From: a virus
DNA: 23,568 nucleotides
Direction: 5' to 3' (one strand)
IMG/VR virus record: IMGVR_UViG_3300021959_000403
Location: 1-23,568 of that record
Below the pieces are notes generated by a model. The model saw only the letters and a list, made by a program, of their open reading frames with translations. It had not been told where the DNA came from and searched no databases. Below are positions 14,268 to 23,568 of the stretch, piece by piece (the stretch's first letter is position 1; each line of letters begins with the position of its first letter). Position numbers and translations under genes: made by a program.

Positions 14268-14275
14268 TATAAATA
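14268..14275 (+). promoter_or_regulatory. T4-type late promoter for protease/scaffold/capsid genes
   Basis: A perfect TATAAATA lies in the 74-base AT-rich gap between the gp67-like gene and gene 21, 39 bases before the gene 21 ATG. It would drive 21-22-23 up to the terminator at 17330. Confidence 0.8.
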
Positions 14276-17329: not shown

Positions 17330-17358
17330 AGGGTGGTCTTTGGATCACCCTTTTTTTA
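17330..17358 (+). terminator. Rho-independent terminator of the capsid transcript
   Basis: AGGGTGGTC (17330-17338) pairs with GATCACCCT (17343-17351) with one G-U and a TTTG loop. Seven T follow at once. It is a textbook intrinsic terminator and separates the capsid operon from the methyltransferase genes. Confidence 0.9.
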
Positions 17359-17386
17359 TATGATATATACTTTTAAAGGAGTCCAA

Positions 17387-17989
17387 ATGTACCCATTAGA
17401 TGTAAGCTTTTTACCGATTCCTGATAAAAACCAACATGACCCTAAGATTGGAATGCAAGGTTGGGGCTATCTACCATACAATGATCCACTGTTACAGGAA
17501 TGGATTTCAGCTATTGGTAGAGAACATAAGATCAAAACAATGTTTGAGATTGGCACATTTGCTGGATACTCTGCAACAATGTTTTTAGAACATCTGTATT
17601 ATTTGAATAAAATTATTACAATTGATCCTAACAACTTTTCTGTTCGTGCTGGTGCTGCATTAGAAAAAAGATATGGTCACAGAGTAGAGTATAAAAAAAT
17701 CAAATCAACTGACTATGGTGGAACTTGGGATGAACGTTATGATATGGTATTCATCGATGGTAATCATAGCGGAGATGTTCCTTACCATGACATTGAACTC
17801 GCTCTATCGTTTAATCCTAAAGTCATTATGATGGACAACGTAGAATTGCCAGACGTACAACGTGCTATAAAAAAATCTGGTTTATTTAATTTAATCTATG
17901 ACCCAAAATATTTCTATTATACTAATGAACACAGAGGTCGTAGACAACCAGGAATATTAGGGGCATTTAATGTACGAAACACGTTATAG
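17387..17989 (+). CDS. Class I SAM-dependent methyltransferase (Methyltransf_24 type)
   Basis: This protein has 200 residues from ATG at 17387, chosen for AAAGGAG five bases upstream. The frame extends back to 17333 only by running through the terminator. Motif I is FEIGTFAGYSA (53-63), the acidic strand end is TIDP (79-82, D80), and VFIDGNHS (121-128) is the post-motif typical of the Methyltransf_24/O-methyltransferase family. A later MMDNVE (148-153) may contribute to metal or substrate binding. It transfers a methyl group from S-adenosylmethionine, probably to an oxygen. The substrate is unknown. It overlaps the next methyltransferase by 20 bases and may act with it. No promoter was recognised between the terminator and this gene. 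Confidence 0.8.
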   Translation: MYPLDVSFLPIPDKNQHDPKIGMQGWGYLPYNDPLLQEWISAIGREHKIKTMFEIGTFAGYSATMFLEHLYYLNKIITIDPNNFSVRAGAALEKRYGHRVEYKKIKSTDYGGTWDERYDMVFIDGNHSGDVPYHDIELALSFNPKVIMMDNVELPDVQRAIKKSGLFNLIYDPKYFYYTNEHRGRRQPGILGAFNVRNTL

Positions 17990-18575
17990 CAAAGAGTGGA
18001 AAAAAGAATATGTGTGGCCAAAAGAAGATGTTCACTTATGGCGGCATTTAAATAAAGAAAAGTACGGTCAAGTAGTACCTAAAACTGTAGCAGATATATC
18101 AGATAGCAAAGGTGTTATTATACAAGCAGGTGGTGCTTGTGGAGTATATGCAGATTACTATTCTAAAAGATTTGGTAAGGTATGGACTTTTGAACCAGAT
18201 CCAGATAACTTTCATTGTCTCAAAGAAAATACAAAAAATATTATAGCATTCAACTGTGCTCTTGGAGAAAACCTTGGTATGGTAACTATACACAATGATC
18301 GAAAAAACTTTGGTGCAACTCACATTGTAAAGAAAGAAGGGCCTATTAGAGTCCTTACAATTGATAGCATGTCTGTTTATCCAGATGTAATACATCTTGA
18401 CGTAGAAGGTTATGAAACAAATATATTAAAAGGAGCAGAACAAGTTATAAAGAAATGTTCACCTATGCTTGTTCTTGAAACTGTGGATAAAGATTATGTT
18501 GTAGGAAAACTAGGTTATACAGAAGTAGGAAAAATAGGAGCAGATACAGTTTTCAAAAGGTTATCTGTAACATAA
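17970..18575 (+). CDS. FkbM-family methyltransferase
   Basis: This 201-residue protein has SAM-binding motif I QAGGACGVYA (52-61), an acidic strand end TFEPDPDNF (73-81), and AFNCALGE. It then has the FkbM-typical LTIDSM and IHLDVEGYE segment (141-149), followed by ILKGAEQVI. FkbM-like enzymes methylate hydroxyl groups of sugars or polyketides and are often found in phage and bacterial polysaccharide loci. The start is embedded 20 bases inside the previous methyltransferase, so the two are translationally coupled. With the glycosyltransferase-like genes at the left end, a shared role in a methylated glycan is possible but not shown. Confidence 0.85.
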   Translation: MYETRYSKEWKKEYVWPKEDVHLWRHLNKEKYGQVVPKTVADISDSKGVIIQAGGACGVYADYYSKRFGKVWTFEPDPDNFHCLKENTKNIIAFNCALGENLGMVTIHNDRKNFGATHIVKKEGPIRVLTIDSMSVYPDVIHLDVEGYETNILKGAEQVIKKCSPMLVLETVDKDYVVGKLGYTEVGKIGADTVFKRLSVT

Positions 18576-18597
18576 ATGTAACATAATTGTGTATTTT

Positions 18598-18668
18598 AGA
18601 AAAAAGTTATAAAAAGTGTTAATTAGGTGTTTACATTGGTACCTACATATGGTATATTAAATTATCAA
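18598..18668 (+). repeat. Direct repeat, promoter-bearing copy 1
   Basis: These 71 bases match 20000-20070 with 7 differences by hand alignment. Five of those lie in the spacer between the -35 and -10 boxes. The conserved part includes an A-rich upstream block, AAAAAGTGTTAATTAGG, both promoter boxes and AAATTATCAA after the -10 box. Confidence 0.85.
18630..18658 (+). promoter_or_regulatory. Sigma-70-style (early-type) promoter 1
   Basis: TTTACA (18630-18635), a 17-base spacer and TATATT (18653-18658), with TGG before the -10 box giving an extended TGN element. It is preceded by an A-rich UP-like block. It looks like a host-polymerase early promoter and drives the gene at 18688. No TATAAATA box is present. 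Confidence 0.8.
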
Positions 18669-18687
18669 CAGATCATAGGAGATCATA

Positions 18688-19092
18688 ATGATTTATCAAG
18701 TTTACCAGATCCACCTGACTAACGAAGACATTGATCTTATCAACTCAACAGGTGATCACAATGCTGTTCCAGCAAATGCTCTAAAACAAAAAATGAGTTT
18801 CGGTCGTGACAATATCGGTGGTTATGCTGGTGAAGCATGGGACGCTGGTTACTATACCCACGTTGCTAACATCACTGCAGAAAACTATGACCAAGTGTTT
18901 GAAATTGGTAACATTGGCCCAGAGCAGAACATCGAGCGGATTGCTCGTATGCATTCTGTTTCTGTTGGTGATATGATTATTGCAGAGGATGGCACACAAG
19001 TTGTTGTGGCTGATTTTGGTTTCGTTGCCATCGGTCACAAACCAGAATTGGTAACCCCGGCGCCCTCAGGGCGACCAAGGCTGAGTTGGTAG
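18688..19092 (+). CDS. Conserved-looking phage protein, unknown function
   Basis: This is a 134-residue protein with AGGAGAT six bases before its ATG. I do not recognise a named T4 gene. The start MIYQVYQIHLTNEDIDLIN is a strand plus helix. The end holds MHSVSVGDMIIAEDGTQVVVADFGFVAIG (in pieces: HSVSVGDMI at about 97-105, VVVADFGFV), which resembles the short SVGD...GF beta module found in small phage and plasmid proteins (YodL/LPD28-like). That resemblance is weak and from memory only. The last residues (PAPSGRPRLSW) look disordered. It is the first gene of the small-gene island, under its own early-type promoter, which suggests early expression, perhaps in host takeover. No membrane segment is visible. 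Confidence 0.65.
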   Translation: MIYQVYQIHLTNEDIDLINSTGDHNAVPANALKQKMSFGRDNIGGYAGEAWDAGYYTHVANITAENYDQVFEIGNIGPEQNIERIARMHSVSVGDMIIAEDGTQVVVADFGFVAIGHKPELVTPAPSGRPRLSW

Positions 19093-19096
19093 TAGC

Positions 19097-19657
19097 ATGA
19101 ATATTTTTGTTCTTGATAAAAACCCAATACGTGCGGCTCAACTACAGTGCGACAAGCATGTTGTCAAAATGATTTTGGAATCTGGTCAGATGCTATCAAC
19201 TGCACATCGTGTACTTGATGGCGTTAAAACTAAAGGTCCATCTAAGTCAGGTAAACGTATGGTTGACAAGTGGCATATGTCAGACTCTTATAGAGAAGAT
19301 CTGCTTTACAAAGCTGTTCACGTCAATCATCCTTGCACTGTCTGGACTATGGAATCACTAGCAAATTATGCTTGGCACTATGAGCATTTTTGTGCTCTTG
19401 CTATTGAGTATGAATATCGGTATGAAAAGAAACACTCTACGTTTACAAAACTAGAAGAAGTTTTGTCCATACCACCAAAAAATATTCCACAAGATATTTT
19501 CCAAACACCATTCAAACTTGCTATGCAACATGAACCACAGTGTATACATGAAGGTGATCCAGTGCGGTCATACCGTGAATACTATGAGACAAAGCAAAAG
19601 CGGTTTGGTATGGTTTGGTCTAAGCGTGAAGTACCTACATGGTTCCATGTTACATAA
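19097..19657 (+). CDS. Conserved phage protein, unknown function (186 aa)
   Basis: This protein has 186 residues and starts 4 bases after the previous stop. MNIFVLDKNPIRAAQLQCDK (1-20), HVVKMILESGQMLSTAHRVL, NHPCTVWTMESLANYAWHYEHF and YEYRYEKKHSTF are features I associate with a widespread marine phage family of unknown function. The pattern is HVVKM...ESGQ, then HPC.W, then the C-terminal YREYYETKQKRF and W..R..PTWF. The conserved His, Cys, Trp and acidic residues (C18-D-K-H, HPC, H/E of the YRYEKKH segment) suggest an enzyme or nucleic-acid-binding role, but no assignment is justified. The final codons (FHVT and stop) lie in a 46-base segment that is repeated 320 bases downstream. Confidence 0.75.
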   Translation: MNIFVLDKNPIRAAQLQCDKHVVKMILESGQMLSTAHRVLDGVKTKGPSKSGKRMVDKWHMSDSYREDLLYKAVHVNHPCTVWTMESLANYAWHYEHFCALAIEYEYRYEKKHSTFTKLEEVLSIPPKNIPQDIFQTPFKLAMQHEPQCIHEGDPVRSYREYYETKQKRFGMVWSKREVPTWFHVT

Positions 19658-19686
19658 ATGATACACTTTTACTGCTTTCAGAAAAA
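19641..19686 (+). repeat. Direct repeat, copy 1 of 46 bp (gene end plus leader)
   Basis: Identical to 19961-20006 except for two C/T differences, exactly 320 bases apart. It contains the last codons of the 186-residue gene, its stop, and the start of the following leader. Confidence 0.9.
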
Positions 19687-19697
19687 GGAAAACAACG

Positions 19698-19919
19698 ATG
19701 AGTCACTGGCACTACCAACTAATGTACCACAAGTATGATAAACCTGTTCTAGGGGAAGAAGGTTACTATGCTGTGCATGAATACCACGAGATGGATGACG
19801 GTGCTGGTTGGACAGAGAACCCAGCCAATGTGACAGGCGATAGTATTGAAGATGTGAAGAAGATGCTACTGTTGATCCTAAAAGACATTGATAAGCATGG
19901 AGTAAAAGATTATGAATAA
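19698..19919 (+). CDS. Small conserved phage protein, unknown function (73 aa)
   Basis: A 73-residue protein with AAGGAAAA before its ATG. MSHWHYQLMYHKYD, then YYAVHEYHEMDDGAGWTENP (in part YYAVHEY, 24-30, and GWTENPANV, 37-45), then SIEDVKKMLLLILKDIDKHG and a final KDYE. This short two-part form, an aromatic beta half followed by a helix, recurs in small proteins of marine T4-like and other phages as far as I recall, without a known function. There is no signal peptide. The stop overlaps the start of a 21-codon frame. It probably shares the transcript from 18630. Confidence 0.7.
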   Translation: MSHWHYQLMYHKYDKPVLGEEGYYAVHEYHEMDDGAGWTENPANVTGDSIEDVKKMLLLILKDIDKHGVKDYE

Positions 19920-19977
19920 AGATTATGTGGCAGTGACAACTATTTCAATGTTTCGTCATAGGTTTCATGTTACATAA
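19912..19977 (+). pseudogene. Truncated small gene fused to a copied gene end (21 codons)
   Basis: The frame MNKDYVAVTTISMFRHRFHVT starts inside the stop of the 73-residue gene (ATGAATAA). Its first part resembles the N-terminus of a family of about 90-100-residue phage proteins beginning with YVVVTTIS-x-FR-x-R, as I recall them. The last four codons (FHVT and stop) lie in the repeat at 19961-20006, which copies the end of the 186-residue gene. The simplest reading is a gene cut short by recombination into this repeat. It may still be translated. Confidence 0.5.
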
Positions 19978-20006
19978 ATGATACACTTTTACTGTTTTCA
20001 GAAAAA
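19961..20006 (+). repeat. Direct repeat, copy 2 of 46 bp
   Basis: This matches 19641-19686 with two differences. It includes the FHVT-stop codons in frame for the 21-codon fragment and joins, within a few bases, the second promoter-bearing repeat (20000-20070). Confidence 0.9.
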
Positions 20007-20070
20007 AGTTTTAAAAAGTGTTAATTAGGGGTTTACATCTGTAACTCTATATGGTATATTAAATTATCAA
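20000..20070 (+). repeat. Direct repeat, promoter-bearing copy 2
   Basis: These 71 bases match 18598-18668, with both promoter boxes unchanged and most differences in the spacer. The left end overlaps the 46-base repeat, so this spot is a junction between two different upstream sequences. Confidence 0.85.
20032..20060 (+). promoter_or_regulatory. Sigma-70-style (early-type) promoter 2
   Basis: TTTACA (20032-20037), a 17-base spacer and TATATT (20055-20060) with the same TGG extension as promoter 1. It lies 31 bases before the ATG at 20091 and should drive the last three small genes of the island. Confidence 0.8.
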
Positions 20071-20090
20071 ATGAGAAAAGGATATATACT

Positions 20091-20324
20091 ATGGAAAATC
20101 AAATCGACTTTATCAGTGCTCATAACGGTGGCATCCAGTGTTCTTCAGATACTGGTTCTGTTGGCTGGTCCAGTACTTCTGAAGGTATCGCATATATCTT
20201 AAAAACTAAAGGTATTGCATCTAGTGTCATGGGCAGTTCCTCTATGGATTTTGCTTCTGAGTATGGCTTTAAAAATGATGGCGATGCTCTGTTGTTGTGG
20301 GAAAAAGCACTGGATTTAATATAA
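20091..20324 (+). CDS. Small protein, unknown function (77 aa)
   Basis: The protein has 77 residues, directly after early-type promoter 2, with AAAAGGA about 10 bases before ATG. MENQIDFISAHNGGIQCSSD is followed by a Ser/Gly-rich middle (VGWSSTSEGIAYIL, SSVMGSSSMDFASEYG) and a short helix DALLLWEKALDLI. It has one Cys, no membrane segment and no recognisable domain. I do not recognise the family. Its stop overlaps the next start by one base (TAATG). Promoter type suggests early expression. Confidence 0.6.
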   Translation: MENQIDFISAHNGGIQCSSDTGSVGWSSTSEGIAYILKTKGIASSVMGSSSMDFASEYGFKNDGDALLLWEKALDLI

Positions 20325-20545
20325 TGTATGATCTTGATATAATTAAAACAGATAAGATGCCGTCTCACGGTTCGCCTCAGGATCGTGGTAGTGCTGATGC
20401 CTATTACGGGCGTACTTATGCTCCCCATTATTATGTTGGTGCTTCAATGCAGTCAGAGCGTGTAGAAAAAGACAACATGACTGTTGGTGAGATTGCAGCC
20501 TACAAGTATGGCTATGATAATGAAGATGATCGGAAGGTGTGGTAA
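20324..20545 (+). CDS. Small conserved phage protein, unknown function (73 aa)
   Basis: This 73-residue protein starts at ATG 20324 in the previous stop (TAATG). A frame back to 20297 adds only codons inside the upstream gene. The pattern HGSPQDRGSADAYYGRTYAPH (HGSPQDRGSADAYYGR, about 13-28) and the end MTVGEIAAYKYGYDNEDDRK-VW are, from memory, the hallmark of a small protein found widely in marine and other phages, with Arg/Asp/Tyr-rich conserved motifs (DRGSAD-x-YYGR, EI-x-AY-x-x-GY). The function is unknown. No membrane segment or signal peptide is visible. The stop overlaps the next tiny gene by one base. Confidence 0.75.
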   Translation: MYDLDIIKTDKMPSHGSPQDRGSADAYYGRTYAPHYYVGASMQSERVEKDNMTVGEIAAYKYGYDNEDDRKVW

Positions 20546-20646
20546 TGAAGTGGCTTATTCTTATCGTTGGTTTGTGGTTGCTACTTTATAATGATGCAAT
20601 ATTATTTCAGATGTTACACCAAACAATCGTGGATCTTATTCAATAA
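20545..20646 (+). CDS. Tiny predicted membrane protein (33 aa)
   Basis: This protein has 33 residues and starts in the last base of the upstream stop (TAATG). MKWLILIVGLWLLLYNDAIL forms one hydrophobic helix of about 15 residues, followed by FQMLHQTIVDLIQ, an amphipathic stretch. It has the form of a single-span inner-membrane peptide. It is probably a real gene because of the one-base coupling and the clean hydrophobic pattern. Possible roles (lysis timing, superinfection exclusion, membrane effects) cannot be chosen from sequence. The late promoter at 20652 begins just after it. Confidence 0.55.
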   Translation: MKWLILIVGLWLLLYNDAILFQMLHQTIVDLIQ

Positions 20647-20651
20647 AACCG

Positions 20652-20659
20652 TATAAATA
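20652..20659 (+). promoter_or_regulatory. T4-type late promoter before the gp3-like/uvsY genes
   Basis: A perfect TATAAATA followed by GT lies 5 bases after the tiny membrane-protein gene and 36 bases before the ATG at 20688. A palindrome (20660-20674) sits where the transcript should start. Confidence 0.8.
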
Positions 20660-22063: not shown

Positions 22064-22288
22064 CTAAGTGTTAGATGCTATTGCAGTATTCACAGCGGTC
22101 ATATCCTCTGAAGTCCAGTAGTCTTTAGCTACCATCAGTTCCAGATGCTCGACATTCCGTGCGACGACAGTCTCATCATCTGCGTAATCGTCCGGGTTTG
22201 CCCGTGCGGCATTGATTAGCGCAACGCTGTCCAGCATGGCGGAGTATGCTTTTGCGATTTCTTCTTCGGTCATAGTTTCTTCAGTCAT
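22064..22288 (-). CDS. Small fibre-module protein, unknown function (74 aa)
   Basis: A 74-residue acidic, helical protein: MTEETMTEEEIAKAYSAMLD, then SVALINAARANPDDYADDET and NVEHLELMVAKDYWTSEDMTA, ending in a short Asn/Thr tail. AAAGGA lies about 7 bases before its ATG, and that ATG overlaps the fibre stop (ATGA), so the two are coupled. Small acidic proteins ending in a W-T-S/T-E-D motif recur after marine phage fibres, as I recall. A role as a fibre chaperone or cap is possible. GC content is clearly higher than the phage backbone, like the fibre gene. Confidence 0.6.
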   Translation of the reverse strand: MTEETMTEEEIAKAYSAMLDSVALINAARANPDDYADDETVVARNVEHLELMVAKDYWTSEDMTAVNTAIASNT

Positions 22289-23568
22289 GTCAGTTTTCCT
22301 TTCAGTGTTTCAACTTCAGCTTTCAGTTCTTTGATGGCGTTTACCAAGACTGGGATAAGTTCTTCGTTCGTCATTCTCAGCTTGTCGGGGTCTTCATTGT
22401 CAACAATTACGTTGTCCTCACCCTCAATGGCTAGGACGTCTTGGGCTAGGAACCCATAATGCTTTTTGCCGTTGGTTTCTTCCGTGTCCCGGTCCTTGCG
22501 GAACTTGTAGCTAACAGGGTTAAGCTGCTCTACGAAGTCCAGCCCTTCGTTCATCGGTTCAATTTCGGTCTTGTCACGCTTGTCAGAAACTACGGTCCAA
22601 GCGACTTGGACATAGGCGTTTGTGACAGCGGTATGCCCCATGACAACGCGGTTGTTTTCTGTTGTTGGGTCGAAGACTGGTGAGTAGGAGCCACTGGAGG
22701 TGCGGAACGCCGCACCAAAGTTACCTGAGCCTGTGGTGTTGTTGTCCAGTGCCTGAAGACCAACAGCTACGTTCTCACTGCCTGTGGTGTTATCGTGGAG
22801 CGCCTGAAGACCAAGAGCTACGTTGTTGCCGCCTGTGGTGTTATAGCGGAGCGACTGAAGGCCAAGGGCTGTGTTGTTGACGCCCCCGGTATTGCTTGTT
22901 AGCGCCTGATAGCCATTCGCTGTGTTGCTGATGCCTGTGGTGTTAAGGATAAGCGCCTGAAAACCAGTTGCCGAGTTGTTGTTGCCTGTGGTATTATCAC
23001 GGAGTGCCTGAAGACCAAGAGCTACGTTGCCGGTGCCTGTGGTGTTTTCTCTAAGCGCATCATAGCCATTAGCGGTGTTGTTGGTGCCCGTGGTGTTATA
23101 GAGAAGCGCATTAACGCCTGTCGCTGTGTTGAGGGTGCCCGTGGTATTATAGAGAAGTGCGTATCGACCCGTTGCTGTGTTGTAGTTGCCTGTGGTATTA
23201 GTACGGAGTGCCTGAAAGCCACTTGCGGTGTTGCCGATGCCTGTGGTATTGCTGTAGAGCACATCATAGCCATTAGCGGTGTTGTAATCGGCTGTGGTAT
23301 TGTTGTAGAGCGCCTGATAGCCATGGGCCGAGTTGCCGTTGCCCGTGGTGTTAGAGTAGAGCGCCCGATAGCCATTTGCTACGTTGTAGACGCCTGTGGT
23401 GTTAGCGCGAAGCGCCTGATAGCCAGTTGCCGAGTTGTTGCCGCCTGTGGTGTTAGCGTAGAGCGCCTCAAGGCCATTCGCTACGTTTTTGCTGCCCGTG
23501 GTGTTAGAGTAGAGCGCCCGATAGCCAGTTGCCGAGTTGTTAACGCCTGTGGTGTTATAGGCAAGCGC
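22285..23568 (-). CDS. Long repeat fibre with S74 self-cleaving chaperone, N-terminus outside window
   Basis: The frame stays open to the window's right edge, so the GTG at 23262 is not the true start. At least 427 residues are visible. The first part is 16 tandem 17-residue repeats of the form NTTG-xx-N-x-A-x-G-xx-AL-xx, probably a beta-roll shaft. A globular link follows (NFGAAFRTSS, then DPTTENNRVVMGH, NAYVQVAWT). Last comes an intramolecular chaperone of the peptidase S74 (endosialidase) type: VVSDKRDKTEIEP, with its Ser at + strand 22585-22587, then LNPVSYKFR, HYGFLAQDV and a C-terminal coiled coil (VNAIKELKAEVETLKGKL). In this family the domain helps the fibre trimerise, then cuts itself off before the Ser; Ser and the nearby Lys are present. 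It is a probable receptor-binding fibre. Confidence 0.88.
   Translation of the reverse strand, partial: ALAYNTTGVNNSATGYRALYSNTTGSKNVANGLEALYANTTGGNNSATGYQALRANTTGVYNVANGYRALYSNTTGNGNSAHGYQALYNNTTADYNTANGYDVLYSNTTGIGNTASGFQALRTNTTGNYNTATGRYALLYNTTGTLNTATGVNALLYNTTGTNNTANGYDALRENTTGTGNVALGLQALRDNTTGNNNSATGFQALILNTTGISNTANGYQALTSNTGGVNNTALGLQSLRYNTTGGNNVALGLQALHDNTTGSENVAVGLQALDNNTTGSGNFGAAFRTSSGSYSPVFDPTTENNRVVMGHTAVTNAYVQVAWTVVSDKRDKTEIEPMNEGLDFVEQLNPVSYKFRKDRDTEETNGKKHYGFLAQDVLAIEGEDNVIVDNEDPDKLRMTNEELIPVLVNAIKELKAEVETLKGKLT
22741..23568 (-). repeat. 51-bp tandem coding repeats of the fibre shaft (16 units)
   Basis: Sixteen in-frame 51-base units plus 12 bases at the edge. The most conserved part is the complement of GCCTGTGGTGTT, encoding NTTG. 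Unit 6 from the window edge (NTTADYN) and unit 14 (NTGG) vary within the core. Such arrays may change unit number by recombination. Confidence 0.9.

Follow-up and report, generated by a model that had tools for sequence, protein, structure and literature searches.

Early promoters of the T4-like phages are described as very strong and as needing only the host polymerase for their recognition. The consensus of the T4 early promoters comprises GTTTAC at -36 to -31 together with UP DNA (PMC1524935, PMC2988021), and T4-like genomes keep a terminator after gene 23 (PMC1524935). Gene modules are exchanged in T4-like phages through PeSL cassettes (Arbiol 2010; Comeau 2014), which are known here through papers that cite them (PMC4503421). 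We analysed a viral contig that is complete at 23,568 bases, referred to below as the window, and compared a repeated block between its capsid and tail-tube-like genes with these systems. As PeSLs are portrayed in the citing papers, the block shares with them a composite intergenic early-promoter cassette that is repeated and lies at module junctions in variable regions, with gene insertions and deletions between relatives whose joints fall at the cassette. It differs from them in carrying a phased DNA dyad, often over the upstream stop codon, instead of a conserved RNA stem-loop, and in standing in the late region, in a phage that does not belong to the Tevenvirinae. The terminator-type stem-loop of the PeSLs was not found as a general feature of the copies, a clear one being seen only in single copies such as that of contig L260. 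Judged from sequence and from what the citing papers relate, the cassette is of the PeSL type, lacking the stem-loop and having a phased dyad in addition; the 18-bp dyad is not described in the PeSL literature as represented in those papers.

An island of small genes between gp23 and the tail-tube-like gene

The gp23 of the window is 64% identical to that of phage C48C1 and 57-60% identical to those of Methylophilales, Pelagibacter and Synechococcus T4-like phages, and C48C1 (Kyanoviridae, host not recorded) is the sole close DNA relative of the contig in the phage collection. The gene order is gp23, terminator, Methyltransf_24 and FkbM methyltransferases, island, late promoter, tail-tube-like gene and uvsY. 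The two methyltransferase genes (17333-18575) lie 3' of the gp23 terminator and lack a TATAAATA box; relatives of the FkbM protein occur mostly in phages of alphaproteobacteria, a weak hint of an alphaproteobacterial host. Near the end of the window, an open-ended ORF on the minus strand (22285-23568) contains a 51-nt (17-aa) tandem repeat (NTTG..NTA.G..AL) and an end, SDKRDKTEIEPM..., whose sequence looks like that of an endosialidase-type intramolecular chaperone; the ORF is probably a tail fibre or other adhesin.

Between gp23 and the tail-tube-like gene, the island forms a region of variable gene content that holds small genes of early type. An earlier note on this DNA had counted seven to eight of them, a number that we revise to six plausible genes (134, 186, 73, 77, 73/82 and 35 aa) and a 21-codon fragment; its statement that no TATAAATA box lies within 18576-20646 holds, the nearest ones being at 14268 and 20652. 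The features of the locus are as follows.

17330-17351, plus strand: intrinsic terminator after gp23 (9-bp stem, then a T run), setting the capsid operon apart
18688-19092, plus strand: orf134, a protein without assigned function; distant homologues in contigs G014 and L139 also stand behind a dyad (one mismatch) and a TTTACA promoter
19097-19657, plus strand: orf186, matching PHROG 624 'DNA binding protein' and, weakly, Pyr_excise
19698-19919, plus strand: orf73, with a homologue 84% identical in contig G014, amid many small genes
19914-19979, plus strand: 21-codon chimeric fragment, MNKDYVAVTTISMFRHRFHVT, joined by the repeat to the 3' end of orf186
20091-20324, plus strand: orf77, no assigned function; not found in L179, L180, L008, L010 or L014
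20324-20545, plus strand: orf82 (73 aa counted from ATG), no assigned function; mostly kept at the locus
20539-20646, plus strand: orf35, no assigned function; kept in most relatives
20652-20659, plus strand: late promoter TATAAATA of the tail-tube-like gene, at which the island ends

The repeated block and probable gene exchange at its joints

Two full repeats of the block, 126 bp long and 78% identical, are present in the island (18558-18683 and 19960-20085), together with a partial, promoter-less one.

18566-18583, plus strand: dyad 1, TGTAACATAAATGTAACA, which holds the FkbM stop codon; 47 nt separate the end of its 16-mer core from the -35
18600-18627, plus strand: A-tract UP block and spacer, copy 1, AAAAAAGTTATAAAAAGTGTTAATTAGG
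18630-18658, plus strand: early promoter P1 (-35 TTTACA, 17 nt, TGG, -10 TATATT)
19641-19686, plus strand: 46-bp partial repeat comprising the 3' end of orf186 and an orphan dyad (19648-19665), without a promoter
19687-19960, plus strand: segment absent from L003 and L015, inserted here or deleted there between 46-bp direct repeats
19968-19985, plus strand: dyad 2, TGTTACATAAATGATACA, 47 nt before the -35
20002-20029, plus strand: A-tract UP block and spacer, copy 2
20032-20060, plus strand: early promoter P2

Shared by the full copies, in 5' to 3' order, are the 3' end of the preceding reading frame, TAA included; the dyad TGTNNCATAAATGNNACA; roughly 18 bases that vary; and the A-tracts AAAAAAGTTWTAAAAAG. 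Then come GTGTTAATTAGG(T/G)G, TTTACAT, 17 nt and TATATT with TGG and, leading up to the ATG, AAATTATCA and a ribosome-binding site. The repeat thus includes the 3' end of the upstream gene; in each of the three window copies, the dyad and the stop codon of the frame before it overlap. The earlier note had aligned 71 bases of this repeat and counted 7 differences, 5 of them in the spacer; a recount by eye agrees and places the other two in the A-tract (GTTAT/GTTTT) and just 5' of the -35 (T/G). The segment GTGTTNATTAGGNGTTTACAT occurs twice, against 0 occurrences expected from 100 shuffles with 3 mismatches allowed. About 20 related IMG/VR contigs keep the block, standing before different small genes, so that the repeat passes the test of conservation in relatives by which the note proposed to refute itself. 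As read from its sequence, the repeated block is a composite cassette of a dyad, phased A-tracts (putative UP element and bend), a strong T4-type early sigma-70 promoter and a ribosome-binding site, and the proposal of early-type promoters in a modular cassette among late genes gains support.

The promoter of the block, GTTTACAT followed by 17 nt and TATATT with TGG, resembles T4 early promoters in its GTTTACA -35, the 17-nt spacer, the extended -10 (TGG with TATA(A/T)T) and the A-tract UP DNA, whereas T4 promoters lack the dyad. The two near-identical promoters of the earlier note, P1 and P2, are the only instances of TTTACA-17-TATATT in the 23.6-kb contig (0 for a control pattern). Scanned for generic sigma-70 promoters, this AT-rich region gave 22 matches versus 24.3 expected, which is chance level, and the evidence therefore lies in the repeat and its conservation, not in the hexamers. 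The related pattern TTTACA-17-TATANT has 10 matches in T4, on a single strand, and 0-3 in each other T4-like phage. In T4 (NC_000866), near-identical early promoter pairs are seen at 123064/136307 and at 20583/57961, as duplicated cassettes would give.

In C48C1, we find some two dozen sigma-70 promoter matches (a raw count of 50 enters most sites twice) versus about 3 raw matches per shuffle, and two of these promoters have AAAAAAGTTTTAAAAA directly before TTGACA. At the same locus in L179 (1940-2057), orf134 is preceded by AAAAAGTTTTAAAAAGACTTGACA-17-TATGAT, a promoter with a TTGACA -35, with the same A-tract upstream and no dyad. The near-identical A-tracts before TTGACA promoters in C48C1 and L179 suggest an old, UP-like element in the A-tract block. 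The main A-tracts of the cassette are set about 13 nt further upstream of the -35 than those of C48C1 and L179. orf134 accordingly keeps a sigma-70 promoter where the cassette is absent, and the difference between the promoters implies that they can be replaced while the gene stays. By the same A-tracts, the kept block AAAAAAGTTTTAAAAAGTG is best taken as UP or A-tract DNA; its TTAATT part is not conserved.

A comparison of alleles of the gp23-tube locus revealed breaking and rejoining at the block in five relatives. The window has the order orf186, bare dyad, orf73, 21-codon fragment, cassette, orf77, orf82, with 320 bp containing orf73 between two 46-bp copies, a segment absent in L003 and L015, whose order is orf186, cassette, orf77, orf82. 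The alignment of L003 to the window is unbroken through 19686 and resumes at 19961, only 19687-19960 being missing; the direct repeats flanking the missing segment are formed by the 3' end of orf186 together with the dyad, and the 46-bp copy at the L003 junction matches both of them. L014 has orf186, cassette, a different gene and an orf82-like gene; L010 has an orf82-like gene, orf186, a bare dyad, a new small gene and orf73; in L179, L180 and L008, orf186 leads directly into orf82 and the second cassette is absent. The junction in L014, L010 and L008 is occupied by other genes than in the window, and the island is absent in L182 and C48C1. On this comparative sequence evidence, the shared cassette appears to be a place of homologous gene-module exchange, as reported for PeSLs (PMC4503421). 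The word 'mobile' in the earlier note thus applies to the block as a recombination joint between modules and not as a transposing unit. Transposition was considered and set aside, since the joints are homologous 46-bp repeats and nothing suggests it: a recombinase of its own, terminal inverted repeats and a target duplication were not found, nor was a transposase-like family among the island genes.

The dyad and its spacing from the promoter

The dyad stands upstream of nearly every copy of the block. A search of 395 kb of related contigs for its exact 16-mer, GTNNCATAAATGNNAC, gave 23 distinct contexts, versus 0-1 in shuffled sequence. Of these contexts, 22 have a TTTACA at most 47 nt away, on one side or on both, and several are placed between divergent promoters; the exception to the 22 is the orphan (window 19649 and L010). 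The left half-sites AT, TA and AA recur as reverse-complemented right half-sites AT, TA and AA, with one GA, and this matching on opposite strands makes the dyad a two-fold symmetric DNA site. A Pho-box or other direct repeat was rejected because the right half-sites match the left ones only when reverse-complemented. At the four variable bases the half-sites pair in 17 of 46 cases versus 24.5 in shuffles, and RNAalifold found no consensus RNA structure among the dyad copies; with halves that vary independently and no conserved RNA fold, the dyad looks like a protein-dimer site rather than a stem-loop.

It is unlikely that the cassette is a classical PeSL in which the dyad forms the stem of a terminator that ends the upstream transcript, with the early promoter next to it. 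The symmetry of the dyad and its place after stop codons would fit such a role, as would the clear stem-loop just 5' of the L260 promoter and the standing of PeSLs as the known T4-like cassettes in the citing literature (PMC4503421). The lack of a consensus fold and of covariation, on which the hairpin or terminator reading of the dyad was rejected, speaks against it, and so do the dyads that lie between divergent promoters at 3 or 14 nt from the -35 of the reverse one, and a helical phasing that a terminator would not be expected to have. In L260 (1495-1600), an 11-bp stem-loop, AAAAATGCACA/TGTGCATTTTT, lies between dyad and -35, and this cassette looks, by sequence, like a true terminator plus promoter.

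Beyond the related contigs, no dyad was found in T4 (0 matches), HTVC008M, Mosig, C48C1 or five other isolate or single-cell phages, and Melnitz-3 has a single isolated match. A scan of bacterial genomes for the bare dyad gave scattered matches over many phyla and no pointer to the host. TGTAACATAAATGTAACAGAAAAA occurs with similar flanks in three Desulfovibrio MAGs (L268, L284, L291) and is possibly, from its sequence, a bacterial site of the same shape.

The distance from dyad to -35 is 3, 14, 25-27, 36-37 or 46-47 nt, that is, about 3+11n. The first contig set, scanned 0-75 nt upstream of TTTACA, also gave 49 (a site with one mismatch, seen in five contigs) and 70 (a single match, likewise with one mismatch); the phasing has R = 0.94 at period 11 (n = 19 groups, two doubtful rows or outliers included), and in this set p = 0.0008 with each distinct distance entered once. 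Two later free-spacing scans, which brought in new contigs, gave 3, 26, 27, 36 and 37 at sites with a plausible -10 and, in L572, where two dyads lie in tandem, 53 for the outer one; sites without a -10 gave 10, 12, 17, 19, 25 and 29 and are mostly coding-looking chance matches. A Monte Carlo test over 17 spacer families with the tandem cases kept gave p = 0.0002, the scans spanning spacings of about 3-49 nt and the spacings not all being independent, as some contigs and families share ancestry. A control scan with the dyad placed downstream of the -35 found mostly coding-looking matches and no such cassettes. In L572 (2760-2792), divergent early promoters flank the two adjoining dyads (GTTACATTTATGATACAGTGACATAAATGTAAC), and 36 nt separate each dyad from the -35 that belongs to it.

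With the -35 in its usual place at -35 to -30, the dyads would be centred near -46, -57, -68, -79 and -90. An upstream dyad at whole helical turns from the promoter is also the arrangement of class I activator promoters of the CRP/FNR type, though to our knowledge the half-site GTWWCAT is neither the CRP nor the FNR half-site. That the dyad is instead the operator of a repressor switching the early promoters off later in infection seems doubtful: its shape, its association with promoters and the copies 3 nt from the -35 are what an operator could have, but most copies are centred near -90 and phased, unlike in steric repression; looping or anti-activation is possible. Recent duplication without any regulator, with the cassette passed on by common descent, the steps of 11 nt due to slippage and the dyad serving as homology for recombination, would explain the spacer sequence common to many copies and the change from 47 to 36 in the main family by an 11-nt deletion, yet it is quite improbable given unrelated spacers at 26-27, 37 or 47 nt (L260, L261, L423, L555, L560, L509), two different 11-nt deletions that both lead to 36, and a dyad kept while the surrounding sequence changes.

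A candidate regulator of the early promoters

We consider it likely that the block is a modular cassette which combines gene swapping and early control with a dyad bound by a dimeric regulator, likely an activator. Homologous recombination of the phage would swap gene modules through the cassette, and each incoming gene would thereby come under early control, even amid late genes. A dimeric regulator would bind the dyad on the side of the helix that faces RNA polymerase, as the helical phasing and the absence of covariation at the RNA level suggest; it would most likely be an activator of the class I type in contact with the alpha C-terminal domain, and the A-tracts between dyad and promoter may assist through bending. 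Sites that are locked in phase and lie far upstream of a sigma-70 promoter good in other respects are typical of activators touching that domain, and an activator is, from the site's arrangement, probably to be ranked above a repressor. The earlier note had offered the kept upstream block as either an UP element or a regulator site; the kept segment AAAAAGTGTTAATTAGG reads best as UP or spacer DNA, so that a regulator site there would be placed too near the promoter. The dyad, some 47 nt before the -35 and not mentioned in the note, is the likelier site.

Ogr/Delta sites of P2 and P4 have the form TGT-N12-ACA and stand upstream of sigma-70 promoters. The same palindrome is the formal consensus of CrtJ/PpsR in phototrophic proteobacteria (PMC5362033, PMC10890935), and most dyads have it, including all three in the window. 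In contrast to CrtJ/PpsR sites, however, the inner CATAAATG is invariant here, and PpsR sites overlap the -35/-10. Known Ogr/Delta sites, in turn, govern late genes, and the Ogr/Delta zinc-finger protein (PF04606) had no match in 15 records of these contigs, most of them fragments. Among the Pfam matches listed for 162 ORFs of the related contigs, likewise fragments, no obvious DNA-binding regulator family was seen.

We regard as evenly balanced the more specific proposal that the early promoters of this marine T4-like lineage, unlike the factor-free ones of T4, would need, or be tuned by, a dimeric host or phage regulator binding the dyad upstream at whole helical turns; the L179 promoter before orf134, which has no dyad, indicates that the dyad is not indispensable there. 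If the proposal is true, the early genes of an abundant group of marine phages are tied to a regulator, and possibly to a host signal, and the site travels with the cassette, so that every captured gene would enter the regulon at once. It also yields a testable spacing rule, with 11-bp steps allowed and 5-bp steps not. Cassette-driven gene shuffling is also extended to this lineage.
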